Assembly (NCBI GenBank): GCA_017406745.1
Contig: JAFQXY010000004.1
Span: 1 to 51,241, forward strand
Source: Candidatus Saccharimonadota bacterium
GTDB lineage: Bacteria; Patescibacteriota; Saccharimonadia; Saccharimonadales; Saccharimonadaceae
Direction of reading: 5' to 3'
Length of the DNA stretch: 51,241 nt
Each line of letters starts with the position of its first letter. The stretch's first letter is position 1. The position numbers and the translations under genes were made by a program. Positions 1 to 38,385 of this stretch are shown here, one piece after another. Below the pieces are notes generated by a model, which saw only the letters and a program-made list of their open reading frames with translations, was not told the origin of the DNA and did not search any database.

Positions 1-3000
1 CAGCCAGTACCTTCTCAGACTCTACATCTACTGGTACAGCATACAATGGTAAATGGGGACTAAAACCAAGTAAGTACTATAATACCAGTACTAATACTAC
101 AGTAGACAATACAGACACTACCACTGGACTATTCTTCCCAGCTCCAACAGTTAGTGGGTTTACTATAGCAAAGACCAATTGTGCTAATAGTACGTCCACA
201 GTTACCAACCCAGACTGTCCTAATCTGCAGGATACTTACACCTTTAGCCTAGGCGCTAGAGCAGACTATACCCAAATAGCAGGTACTTATACTAATACCT
301 ATGTACTACAAGCAGTAGGTAATGCCATTACCTATGCCATTACTTATAGTGACAATAGTGGAGATAGTAGTGTAGCTAATCTCCCATACTTTAATGGCAA
401 TACATCTAATCATACCCAATCTGGTTCTACTAGTACCACTAATATAGTACTAAAAGGCACGGGTACTAATAACACAGATGATGCGACTCCCACAAGAACT
501 GGCTATACCTTCTCAGGTTGGTGTAATACCACTACTACAGAATCTGGTACCAAATGTAATGGCAATACTACTCCTACTTATACTGCAGGAGGTAACTATG
601 GTATAGATCAAACTACATCAAATGATACCACTCTTTATGCACTCTGGACACCAATAGATTATACTATTACCATCAACTCTGGTACTGGTATTAGTACCCT
701 TACTGCTACTAACTGGACCAATACTGGTACTGCCACCATATCTAAAACTTATCATATCAATGACACTATAGATTTATCTACCACCATTACTCCCAACTAT
801 AAGACCGGCTATAATGGTACCGGCTATACTAAAGCCAGTGGTGCAGGTTCTCTTAGTAGCTCTACCTTCACAGTAGGTGCAGGTAATGCTACTATTACTA
901 TTGATGCTACAGGACTAAATGAACCAGTCTGTACTATCCAAGGTGGTGCTACTAAAGTATATAACCGTACTGCTACTACCCTCACCGCTACAGACAACTC
1001 TGATTACTATGATACCAGCAGTGTAGATATCACCTATTCATTTGGCTATGCTAGTAATGGTACAGCAAATCTAGGTAACTTTACTACTGCACAAACTGGC
1101 TTTACACTATCAATTGCTGCCAATGCCTTCCGTGGTGCTAGATACTATGGTGTTGCTGTAGTAGTTACAGACAAAACAAATAGTAGTATTACCAATACTT
1201 GTACTAGTGGTACTGTAGATGCAGCCGTTACAGGTACCAATGTAGACAATAGAACCACTATGACTCTAGTAAACTCTAGGATTAACTTTAGCCCTTCTAC
1301 TGCAGATGGTTCACTTACTGGTACCCTTAGTGGTACCAGCCCAGTCTATGTTTACTATAAAGGTACCGCTACTTATAGTAGCCGTACAGGGACTACTGCC
1401 AGAGCCATTCCTACTGCTACTCCTCCAACTGGCTATGCCTTTGATGGTTGGGGTACTTCAGCTGGCGTTAAAGTCATTAATGCAGATGGTACACTTACAG
1501 GTGTTGCTGTATCAGGCTGGACTAATGAATCCAAACAATGGGTAAAGACAGGTACTTCCACCTCCGCTAGTACTGCGGCTAATCAGCTGTATGCGCAGTA
1601 TGTGGTGAGTTGTACCCCCATCAGTGGTTATATGCAAGATTTTACTGGTGCATCAAGCTATTGTGATTCTGGTACCCTTACAGACCGTAGGGATAATAAA
1701 ACTTATAATGTCGCTAAACTAGCAGATGGTAAATGGTGGATGACAGAAAACCTTGCTATAGATCTCACCGCCACTTCCTATGACGATCTCTATGGTACAG
1801 GTGCTAATGTGGGTAAAATGACCAATGCTACTAGTCAGGCTCTAGGCTATCTCAAAGGTAATACCACAGGCACATCCAGTGACCAATGGGCCATGGCAGC
1901 AGTAAAGAAAACCTGGACCAGTAGTTATAGCTACTCCCAGCCTTGGATTGCCGTAGATAGTAGTACTTCTGGTCTATGTAGTGATGCCTACTGTGTAAAT
2001 AGTAACAAATCATGGTCTAGTACTGATGTTACTCCAGCCACCATCAACGGTACCACCAGCATCGCCCAAGGCAAAATAGGTGTTTACTACAACTACTGTG
2101 CCGCCAGTGCCGGTAGTTACTGCTGGGGTAATGGTACAAGTACTACTGGCTCCCCCTCCAGTGACCCCAACACTAGCTCCCTCAGAGACATCGCCAGTGA
2201 CATCTGCCCTTATGGTTGGAGGTTACCTACCGGTGGTAGTTCTGGTGAATTCCAAAACCTCTACACCCAGTATAGTAGTAATGCCACCAATTTCCAAACT
2301 GCCCTCGTGACGCCCCTCTCTGGCTACTTCCATTCTGGTAAGGCCTACAATCAGGGTGACCGCGGCTACTTCTGGTCCTCTACTTGGGGCGGCAATACTA
2401 CCCATATGTGGCTCCTCACCATCAATTCTAGTAGTGTGAGTCCGTCAAATAGCAGTAATCGCTACTTCGGCTTCTCAGTTAGGTGCATTTATGATCCGCC
2501 AACCATGCAATCTGCCACCAGCTCATCCCTTGCCACTCTCATGCCTAACACTGGCGACACTGCTGTATTAGTAGATAATCGCGATGGCCAACAATACCGT
2601 GTAGGTAAACTCGCAGATGGCAAATACTGGATGTTAGAGAATCTAGGTCTAGATATAGTAGCTAAAAAAGATACCCTTACTTCCAGCAATACCAATGCTA
2701 CCACTGAGGCTCTAGGCTACCTCAAAAACGGTGGTGGCACCTCCAGCAATAAGTGGGCTATATCTGGCGTCAGTAAAACATGGACATCTAATTTACAGAA
2801 CTATTACAGTAGGCCCATGATTGCCGTAGATAGTAGTACTTCTGGTCTATGTAATAATGCCTACTGTGTAAATAGCGATTTATCATGGTCCAGTACTGAC
2901 GTTACTTCAGCCACCATTAATGGCGTAACCAGCATCGCCCAAGGCAAAATAGGCGTCTATTACAACTACTGTGCCACCAGTGCCGGTAGCTATTGTTGGG

Positions 3001-3380
3001 GCACCGACAATGGTGGCACAGACTACACTGGCTCCCCAGAGAGTGACCCCAACACCAGCTCTCTCAGAGACATCACCAGTGATATCTGCCCTCATGGTTG
3101 GAGGTTACCTACCGGTGGTAGTTCTGGTGAATTCCAAAACCTCTACACCCAGTATAGTAGTAATGCCACCAATTTCCAAACTGCCCTCGTGACGCCCCTC
3201 TCTGGCAGCTTCGCTTCTGGTAGGGCCTCCAGCCAAGGTTTCCGCGGCTACTTCTGGTCCTCTACTTGGGAAAGTACTAGCGGTATGTACAACCTCTTTA
3301 TCAATTCTAGCAGTGTGACTCCGTCCAATTACAATTATCGCTACGGTAGCTACTCAGTTAGGTGCTTACTGGGTTCCTAG
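1..3380 (+). CDS. Giant repeat-rich surface protein, C-terminal part (5' end outside window)
   Basis: The frame is open from base 3 to the TAG at 3378-3380, so the ATG at 1260 is internal and the gene starts before the window. The visible ~1,125 residues are rich in Thr, Ser, Gly, Asn and Tyr. Around bases 500-655 and 1430-1590 lie Listeria-Bacteroides (InlB B-repeat-like) modules with GYTFSGW / GYAFDGW and LYALW / LYAQYV. Two Fib_succ_major-type domains follow (about 1620-2490 and 2500-3377), each with DGKWWMTENL or DGKYWMLENL, DICPxGWRLPTG, GYFWSSTW and a final SVRC. These families are known in exported adhesin-like proteins; the Fib_succ_major fold is C-type-lectin-like. No sortase motif or C-terminal membrane segment is visible, so anchoring would lie upstream. 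Cell-surface binding is inferred. Confidence 0.85.
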   Translation, partial: ASTFSDSTSTGTAYNGKWGLKPSKYYNTSTNTTVDNTDTTTGLFFPAPTVSGFTIAKTNCANSTSTVTNPDCPNLQDTYTFSLGARADYTQIAGTYTNTYVLQAVGNAITYAITYSDNSGDSSVANLPYFNGNTSNHTQSGSTSTTNIVLKGTGTNNTDDATPTRTGYTFSGWCNTTTTESGTKCNGNTTPTYTAGGNYGIDQTTSNDTTLYALWTPIDYTITINSGTGISTLTATNWTNTGTATISKTYHINDTIDLSTTITPNYKTGYNGTGYTKASGAGSLSSSTFTVGAGNATITIDATGLNEPVCTIQGGATKVYNRTATTLTATDNSDYYDTSSVDITYSFGYASNGTANLGNFTTAQTGFTLSIAANAFRGARYYGVAVVVTDKTNSSITNTCTSGTVDAAVTGTNVDNRTTMTLVNSRINFSPSTADGSLTGTLSGTSPVYVYYKGTATYSSRTGTTARAIPTATPPTGYAFDGWGTSAGVKVINADGTLTGVAVSGWTNESKQWVKTGTSTSASTAANQLYAQYVVSCTPISGYMQDFTGASSYCDSGTLTDRRDNKTYNVAKLADGKWWMTENLAIDLTATSYDDLYGTGANVGKMTNATSQALGYLKGNTTGTSSDQWAMAAVKKTWTSSYSYSQPWIAVDSSTSGLCSDAYCVNSNKSWSSTDVTPATINGTTSIAQGKIGVYYNYCAASAGSYCWGNGTSTTGSPSSDPNTSSLRDIASDICPYGWRLPTGGSSGEFQNLYTQYSSNATNFQTALVTPLSGYFHSGKAYNQGDRGYFWSSTWGGNTTHMWLLTINSSSVSPSNSSNRYFGFSVRCIYDPPTMQSATSSSLATLMPNTGDTAVLVDNRDGQQYRVGKLADGKYWMLENLGLDIVAKKDTLTSSNTNATTEALGYLKNGGGTSSNKWAISGVSKTWTSNLQNYYSRPMIAVDSSTSGLCNNAYCVNSDLSWSSTDVTSATINGVTSIAQGKIGVYYNYCATSAGSYCWGTDNGGTDYTGSPESDPNTSSLRDITSDICPHGWRLPTGGSSGEFQNLYTQYSSNATNFQTALVTPLSGSFASGRASSQGFRGYFWSSTWESTSGMYNLFINSSSVTPSNYNYRYGSYSVRCLLGS
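2212..2324 (+). repeat. 113-bp perfect direct repeat, copy 1
   Basis: This block inside the first Fib_succ_major domain is identical base for base to 3094-3206, exactly 882 bp (294 codons) downstream. The flanking parts of the two domains have diverged, so the block has been duplicated or homogenised recently. Confidence 0.9.
3094..3206 (+). repeat. 113-bp perfect direct repeat, copy 2
   Basis: Second copy of the block at 2212-2324. It ends exactly where the hypervariable-looking C-terminal third of the domain starts (Y/S, H/A, D/F and other differences between copies). Confidence 0.9.
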
Positions 3381-6092: not shown

Positions 6093-7451
6093 ATGTACAA
6101 CGTTTGGAACAACGTATTAGCTGAAATTGAGCAAAAAATCACCCCTGCTAATTTTTCCACTTGGTTCCGTGATACTTCTATTGTTTCTATAGAAGACGGC
6201 TTAGTTATTATTGGTGTAAAAAACTCTTTTTACACCAAGCAACTCCGCAATCGTTATCTAGATATCATCACTGAATCACTCAAAAATAACGATGTAGCGG
6301 TTACCGAAATAGATTTCGAAGTCCAATCCAATTCCAAACCCAAAGTCCGTCCTCGCGAAATCACCACAAATGACACCCTAATCAAAAACCACACCAAAGC
6401 CCGCGAGTACGCCAAAAAAGCCAAAAACCCAAGTGGCCTAAATACTAAATACACCTTAAATAATTTTGTAGTTGGCTCTAATAACGACCTAGCCGCCTCT
6501 GCCGCCAAATCTATCATAGATCATCCAGGCGACCGCTACAACCCATTTTTCCTATATGGTGGACCGGGGCTAGGCAAAACCCACCTCGTCCAAGCTATCG
6601 GCAACGAGCTACTTCAGCGCAATCCCCATTTTAAAATCCTCTACACCCCTATTTCAGATTTTTATTCAGATTTTATTGATTCCGTCCGCAAAGGCAATGG
6701 TAAAGAGTTTTCGCATAAATTTCAAGAATTAGACTGTTTAATCATTGATGATTTTCAGTTTATTGTTGGGAAAGAAAAATCCCAAGAAGAATTTTTCAAC
6801 ATCTTTAATGCCCTCTATCAATTAAATAAGCAAATCATTGTCACTTCAGACCGTTTACCATCTCAAATCAAATCCGTAGACGAACGCCTTGCTTCACGCC
6901 TTACTATGGGTGGAGCTTTTGATATTCAACTCCCCAAATTCGAAGATAAATGCGCCATCCTCCGTTCCAAAGCCGAACTTATTGGCGCAGAAATAGAAGA
7001 TGAAGCTATTGAATATATCGCAGAAAACGTCAATACTAATATACGTGATTTAGAAGGTGAGTTTTCCACTATACTCCTAATGTCCGAGGTTCGCGGTTTA
7101 ACGCCACTCCAGTTAATCAATAATGGCTCTGTTAATGTTTCCCACTCCAGTGCCAAACTCCATCATACCTCCGCCAAACAAATCATAGATAAAGTTGCCA
7201 AATATTACCAAATCACCAGTAAAGAATTATGTTCTCGCACCCGTGTATCACATATTAAAACTGCCCGCCAAGTTGCCATGTTTATTTTAAGTAAAGACCT
7301 TAAGATGTCCACCACTAAAATTGCCAACGAAGTTGGCGTAAAAGATCACACCACCGTTATGCACGGTATCCGCAAAATCGAATCAGACCTCAAACTAAAC
7401 TTTAACCTCCGCGATCAAATCGCCGAAATAAAGGCAGATATTTATGAGTAA
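6093..7451 (+). CDS. dnaA: Chromosomal replication initiator DnaA
   Basis: 452 aa with all four DnaA domains. Domain I starts MYNVWNNVLAEIEQKI and includes FSTWFRDT; there is a short linker. AAA+ domain III has Walker A GGPGLGKTH (from about residue 156) and Walker B LIIDDFQF. The C-terminal domain IV has the DnaA signature with VGVKDHTTVMHGIRKI, which binds DnaA boxes. DnaA melts oriC and loads the replicative helicase. The start fits the family N-terminus despite the short SD spacing. The gene is followed by the DnaA-box-rich spacer and dnaN. Confidence 0.97.
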   Translation: MYNVWNNVLAEIEQKITPANFSTWFRDTSIVSIEDGLVIIGVKNSFYTKQLRNRYLDIITESLKNNDVAVTEIDFEVQSNSKPKVRPREITTNDTLIKNHTKAREYAKKAKNPSGLNTKYTLNNFVVGSNNDLAASAAKSIIDHPGDRYNPFFLYGGPGLGKTHLVQAIGNELLQRNPHFKILYTPISDFYSDFIDSVRKGNGKEFSHKFQELDCLIIDDFQFIVGKEKSQEEFFNIFNALYQLNKQIIVTSDRLPSQIKSVDERLASRLTMGGAFDIQLPKFEDKCAILRSKAELIGAEIEDEAIEYIAENVNTNIRDLEGEFSTILLMSEVRGLTPLQLINNGSVNVSHSSAKLHHTSAKQIIDKVAKYYQITSKELCSRTRVSHIKTARQVAMFILSKDLKMSTTKIANEVGVKDHTTVMHGIRKIESDLKLNFNLRDQIAEIKADIYE

Positions 7452-37821: not shown

Positions 37822-38385
37822 ATGAGTTACATTTTCGCAAAAGACATTGGGCGACTTCAAGAGATCGAAGATTTTGAACGCCAAACTAGGGGTAATTGGC
37901 AAAAACAAGGCATATACCTTAAGAAAATCGGGTTAATTGTCGCACCAGAAGATTATTATGATTGTTATAGGCATAGACATTATTTTACGTGGGGAGAAGC
38001 TTTACGTGCTGACGGCGGGACAGGAATGTTGTATGATAGATGGCGTTTACCAACAATTCGGGACTGGAAAAAGATCCACCGGTACTTTAAACCAAATAGC
38101 CCCGAAGCGTTACAAAGAATGGTAGACGAATTGCATTTGGATTATACAGGATATATTAGCGATAGTGACATGATTGAGTATTTTCAATCCCCTAAAAACT
38201 TCCAAAACAATCCCCAGAACATTTACCTGTATGGATCAGAGGGGTACTATTGGACTAGATCGATTTATGGAAAGCTGGCCGGTGATTTTGCAAAAAACTA
38301 TTTAATCATAAAAGATTTTCGTGGCGGAACAGATTATGACTGGCGTTTTAAAATGTTTCGCATCCGTTGTGTCAAGTATATTTAA
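37822..38385 (+). CDS. Small Fib_succ_major/DUF1566-like domain protein
   Basis: 187 aa. The C-terminal two-thirds repeat the landmark order of the surface-protein domains: DRWRLPTIRDWKKI, GYYWTRS and a final FRIRCVKY (compare GWRLPTG, GYFWSST, SVRC at 2200-3377). This suggests the same C-type-lectin-like fold. No signal peptide is present, so it is cytosolic or exported by other means. Single gene with a structured leader and strong terminator. It could be a recognition module or cargo; function unknown. Confidence 0.72.
   Translation: MSYIFAKDIGRLQEIEDFERQTRGNWQKQGIYLKKIGLIVAPEDYYDCYRHRHYFTWGEALRADGGTGMLYDRWRLPTIRDWKKIHRYFKPNSPEALQRMVDELHLDYTGYISDSDMIEYFQSPKNFQNNPQNIYLYGSEGYYWTRSIYGKLAGDFAKNYLIIKDFRGGTDYDWRFKMFRIRCVKYI

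Follow-up and report, generated by a model that had tools for sequence, protein, structure and literature searches.

A surface-type protein gene with two FISUMP domains

The window analysed here, a stretch of 51,241 nucleotides, is contig C33 read from its first base, and belongs to a genome assembly of 693 kb in 40 contigs (85% complete) whose source is a Saccharibacterium, probably of a gut or rumen clade. The contig start falls inside an open reading frame (ORF) which ends in two FISUMP (Fib_succ_major) domains, A and B, with the following features:

3..3380, plus strand: 5'-truncated ORF of 1125 aa, a large repetitive surface-type protein with the two FISUMP domains at its end
1620..2489, plus strand: FISUMP domain A, internal
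2212..2324, plus strand: 113-bp block, copy 1, identical to 3094-3206
2325..2474, plus strand: variable region (VR) A, followed at 2475-2486 by the conserved tail TCAGTTAGGTGC
2499..3377, plus strand: FISUMP domain B, C-terminal
3094..3206, plus strand: 113-bp block, copy 2, identical to 2212-2324
3207..3353, plus strand: VR B, followed at 3354-3365 by the tail TCAGTTAGGTGC, then LLGS and the stop codon

The assignment to FISUMP follows from the match of the ORF to TIGR02145 (95.9 bits; curated cutoff 41.65), while domain B scores 25.1 bits with PF09603, under the Pfam cutoff of 33.9. The TIGR02543 repeat is also matched in the ORF, and nucleotides 42-648 of the window share ~80% identity with a gene on contig C31 of the same genome, which is the target of a complete diversity-generating retroelement (DGR). 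Domains A and B are related by direct repeats at 1946-2128/2819-3001 (87% identity), 2145-2388/3027-3270 (92%) and 2396-2486/3275-3365 (76%). VR B lies at the C-terminus of the ORF, VR A internally, and the tail TCAGTTAGGTGC that follows each of them would occupy an IMH-like position.

An AlphaFold2 model computed from a five-row alignment reached a pLDDT of 31.8, which is poor for the question of whether FISUMP adopts a lectin fold, and a profile search of the PDB by sequence yielded chance matches only, none of them meaningful. A megablast search of phage records revealed no similar DNA, and RNA folds downstream of the VRs gave nothing decisive. A separate FISUMP-like gene of 187 aa is located at 37822-38385 of the window, without repeats or obvious signs of a VR.

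Codon pattern of the variable regions

The earlier note had described an identical 113-bp block after which the two domains diverge mainly at first and second codon positions while the third base is kept, and had read this as the product of adenine-directed mutagenesis by a DGR. The block indeed ends exactly at the first variable codon, and the divergence that follows spans ~50 codons, domain A being longer than domain B by one codon. Over the 49 aligned codons, A and B differ at 10/18/8 first/second/third positions, whereas the 167 codons upstream exhibit 41 changes at positions 1 and 2 and 45 at position 3 (Fisher p=0.003; sites were handled as independent in this and all other Fisher tests). 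The conservation of the third base holds as a tendency but not as a rule: several of the eight third-base differences are C/T or G/C exchanges and thus fall outside adenine mutagenesis.

A third copy of the domain is present in the same genome:

Contig C25, L010:8278-9216, minus strand: third FISUMP domain copy

Its comparison with the window domains yields 15/14/5 differences by codon position for A (p=8e-6) and 18/13/7 for B (p=7e-4), and when A, B and the C25 copy are listed together, one or more of the three have an A in most of the variable VR columns. Compared with the upstream codons, third positions of the VR diverge less for A and C25 (5/49 vs 56/168; p=0.001) and for B and C25 (7/49 vs 59/167; p=0.005), while the difference for A and B is not significant (8/49 vs 45/167; p=0.19). 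Conversely, divergence at positions 1 and 2 is higher in the VR than upstream in all three pairwise comparisons, with p from 7e-5 to 7e-3. Since copying from a common template raises divergence at positions 1 and 2 and at the same time lowers it at position 3, while selection on the loops alone would only raise the former, the pattern argues for templated rewriting.

Retroelement cassettes and templates in the genome and its genus

As a check, the earlier note had named a DGR reverse transcriptase (RT) and a template repeat (TR) in the genome. Two RTs (RVT_1 genes) are indeed present, each beside a TR/VR pair; the TR of the window VRs is absent from the 85%-complete assembly. The cassettes are arranged as follows:

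Contig C31, L009:3379-4458: RT1, behind a target gene with VR1 and TR1
Contig C24, L008:6729-7877, minus strand: RT2, preceded by an accessory ORF as well as by a FISUMP VR that lies at the contig end
Contig C24, L008 about 6380-6600, plus strand: TR2, on the strand opposite to RT2 and the VR

Both RTs contain the motif IGxxxSQ (SIGAMTSQ and VIGNLTSQ), which is the DGR form of this RT motif. TR1, which reads SGSNFWLLSPNNRNSNGNANEYNLNSNGNLNNNNVNNTNGVRPA, and VR1 mismatch at 27 of 41 A positions and at 1 of 102 other bases; for TR2 and the assembled part of VR2, the corresponding figures are 11/34 and 1/99. Both cassettes are thus DGRs, comprising RT, TR and VR with A-specific mismatches as well as an accessory ORF adjoining the RT, and both look intact; neither Pfam nor NCBIfam has a family that their accessory ORFs match. 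Of a third RT, a short remnant is left on contig C26 (L078:1852-1923), which is 91% identical over 23 aa to the RT2-type RT of congener G034 and stands behind a FISUMP VR, the two together spanning L078:1501-1923. The remnant is the trace of a deleted third DGR cassette.

As an aside, TR and RT are on opposite strands in the C24 cassette, and the same holds for nearly all FISUMP cassettes seen in congeners (L048, L049, L052, L054, L055, L061, L062, L063 and L066; the exception is G059/L068, with a direct arrangement), so that transcription of these TRs must run towards the RT gene. Cassettes with inverted parts are listed in PMC6642488.

We looked for the TR of the window VRs with (i) the VR and (ii) the predicted TR as BLAST queries, and with (iii) an 18-base core allowing up to two mismatches; in the 85%-complete assembly, each of these searches yielded just the three VRs A, B and C25 and no TR. 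The predicted TR for this family reads about LSGNFNSGKANNQGNRGNFWSSTW..NINSSSVNPSNNNNRNN.NSVRCLLGS. TR2 of C24, considered as the window template, belongs to another FISUMP family (SIRCVAKS) and is ~76% identical to the predicted TR over 93 bases. Since neither an RT nor a TR lies within reach of the window gene in the assembly, the rewriting would have to occur in trans, and since the assembly is only 85% complete, the cognate TR has either escaped sampling or been lost. Contig breaks fall within target genes that share long repeats, so that a cassette could easily stay unassembled. Contig ends inside DGR-type target genes were observed for C5, C7, C11, C18, C19, C21, C24, C25, C26, C31, C33, C34, C35 and C37, and the repeats common to these genes seem to fragment the assembly.

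A template predicted solely from the copies of the own genome, with A placed at the variable columns, was then compared with 174 congeneric genomes. Many matches are true TRs, rich in AAC/AAT and located beside RTs 47-50% identical to RT2, and these TRs agree with the prediction (predicted LSGNFNSGKANNQGNRGNFWSSTW... vs, e.g., LSGNFNNGSANNQGSNGNFWSSTY...NNNNRNNGNSLRCLLGS* in a congener). Pooled over seven congener TR/VR pairs on the FISUMP domain, mismatches amount to 144/428 at A and 9/1100 at other bases. In congener G004, the TR lies on contig C15 and the VR on contig C17 (28/60 A vs 1/165 other mismatches), a target away from its cassette being consistent with action in trans.

The congener templates may also stand in for the cognate TR in a test whose sites are picked from them and not from the window: a column counts as an A column if 80% or more of 13 congener TRs have A there. 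Domains A and B then differ at 22/47 A columns and 11/102 others (p=3e-6), A and the C25 copy at 26/47 and 6/102 (p=5e-11), and B and the C25 copy at 24/47 and 14/109 (p=1e-6). Window domain B mismatches the nearest congener TR at 29/58 A and 30/136 non-A positions; as expected, the non-A mismatches fit a diverged template, though not cleanly.

The genome contains ~20 FISUMP domains, fragments included, on 16 contigs, as compared with only two complete DGRs. By their VR tails the domains fall into the families LLGS (window A, B and C25), VRTS, VRSS/KSE, VAKS (with TR2), LRTS and the GVRPA type (C31). The seven VRTS copies exhibit a clear fingerprint, in that 37 third positions of the VR are constant and 14 variable, while more than half of positions 1 and 2 are variable with A nearly always in the column; the fingerprint of VRSS/KSE is weaker. 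TRs were found in the assembly for the VAKS and GVRPA families only, the dedicated TR search having been confined to the LLGS family and, by 3' end, the VRTS family; for VRTS this search by 3' end found no TR in the assembly. Among 110 near-complete congeners, 62 possess an RT and 48 do not, and FISUMP domains are present in 171 of the 174 congeners. G107, G083, G095 and G130 (95-99% complete) have no RVT_1 gene and yet carry FISUMP VR-like domains. In G107, the single RT-less congener tested for the fingerprint, the C13-C9 comparison yields 16/15/4 in the VR vs 15/13/40 upstream.

Origin of the variable regions and relation to known systems

Taken together, the codon pattern of the VRs, the RTs with A-biased TR/VR pairs in the same genome, the congener TR/VR pairs and the A-column test bear out the DGR reading of the earlier note, and the sequence evidence makes it very probable (roughly 0.9) that the second halves of both FISUMP domains are VRs of a DGR. 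Counting against it are the searches of the assembly that found no TR for these VRs, the few A/B differences that adenine mutagenesis would not yield, and the non-A mismatches to the nearest congener TR. A DGR RT would reverse-transcribe an A-rich TR, whose loop codons are AAC/AAT, with random bases placed opposite template adenines during synthesis, and the cDNA would then replace its counterpart in the target gene. Loop residues would thereby be scrambled and the remaining bases, third positions included, reset to the template, with the conserved 3' tail (TCAGTTAGGTGC...) serving as homing boundary. RT and TR would act in trans on the window gene, and their cassette would either lie in genome sequence that the assembly does not cover or have been deleted, as happened to at least one further cassette of this genome; with such a deletion, the window VRs would be frozen. 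We infer that a DGR acts in trans on the window gene, that its VRs may be under current DGR activity, and that the VR loops may bind, recognising a host or partner cell at the surface.

Whether the VRs are still being rewritten concerns a sub-case of the DGR explanation which bears on present activity only: diversification by a DGR in the past, with TR and RT since deleted and only ordinary mutation, duplication and gene conversion acting now. The missing cognate TR, the RT remnant behind another FISUMP VR on C26, the VR-like domains in the RT-less congeners G107, G083, G095 and G130 with the fingerprint kept in G107, and a degree of third-base drift between the two window domains all speak for it. 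Indeed, the remnant, the RT-less near-complete congeners, the nearly universal FISUMP domains and the G107 fingerprint render loss of a cassette plausible. On the other hand, the assembly lacks 15% of the genome, contig breaks lie within target genes, which is where cassettes sit, and the two other DGRs look intact, so that we would put the odds of a frozen state slightly below even.

The alternatives to DGR diversification fare considerably worse. Gene conversion among the ~20 FISUMP copies, acting as an archive of silent cassettes, could shuffle existing variation into an A/B mosaic, and the many paralogues as well as the identical block adjoining the VRs are in its favor. The TR match in the G004 alignments begins ~25 bases before the first variable codon, so that the 113-bp identity reaches farther upstream than congener TRs, which speaks for gene conversion between the two domains, or their recent duplication, in addition to retrohoming. 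However, conversion moves blocks, and would not limit changes to the first two positions of codons derived from AAN, while the VR differences are scattered single-codon changes. Gene conversion can act alongside a DGR; as the sole cause of the pattern we consider it improbable. If the domain had simply been duplicated and its lectin-like surface loops placed under ordinary diversifying selection, with no retroelement involved, this would account for the gathering of amino-acid-changing substitutions in one segment, but such selection would not reduce third-base divergence in that same segment and does not predict differences on columns that are A in congener templates. With DGRs in the genome, and congener DGRs targeting the same domain, selection alone appears highly improbable.

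As a class, FISUMP targets and DGRs in CPR are already known. Fib_succ_major/DUF1566 domains were identified as DGR targets in human microbiomes in 2014 (Ye 2014, PMC4159848), and in these systems, as in the window, a surface protein ends in a domain of this family and TR/VR differences are A-directed. They differ in that those targets were found with their DGRs, whereas the cognate TR of the window is not in the assembly, and in that the window combines two tandem FISUMP domains in one gene of a Saccharibacterium. DGRs are enriched in CPR, and those of their VRs which are annotated adopt lectin folds (Roux et al. 2021, PMC8144416); the DGRs of Patescibacteria/CPR (DGR clade 2) are likewise cell-encoded with C-terminal VRs, but their targets are usually without recognisable conserved domains, in contrast to the recognisable FISUMP domain and repeat regions seen here. 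Remote targets and multiple VRs per TR have also been described (PMC7517822, PMC6642488). In cyanobacterial DGRs with remote variable proteins (Vallota-Eastman et al. 2020, PMC7517822), many scattered paralogous C-terminal VR domains are similarly served in trans by few DGRs; there, however, TR/VR homology ties the remote targets to a resident DGR, while no resident TR was found for the window VRs. In the open-access literature, to which our search was limited, we found no genus described in which fingerprinted FISUMP VR domains persist in RT-less genomes.

It is tempting to speculate, although we deem it rather unlikely, that the genus keeps its FISUMP arrays as a DGR-written repertoire of binding loops which outlives the retroelement, with cassettes repeatedly gained and lost, recombination reshuffling the array between such episodes, and the window pair representing an orphan family. 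An array of this kind would resemble an antigenic-variation archive. In any case, a reduced (0.7 Mb), epibiont-type genome here gives a large surface-protein family over to targeted hypermutation, which would fit with host or partner cells being recognised in a variable manner. Having more VR families than resident DGRs, it represents a clear case in which DGR loss and use in trans are testable within one genus, for which 174 genomes have been sequenced.
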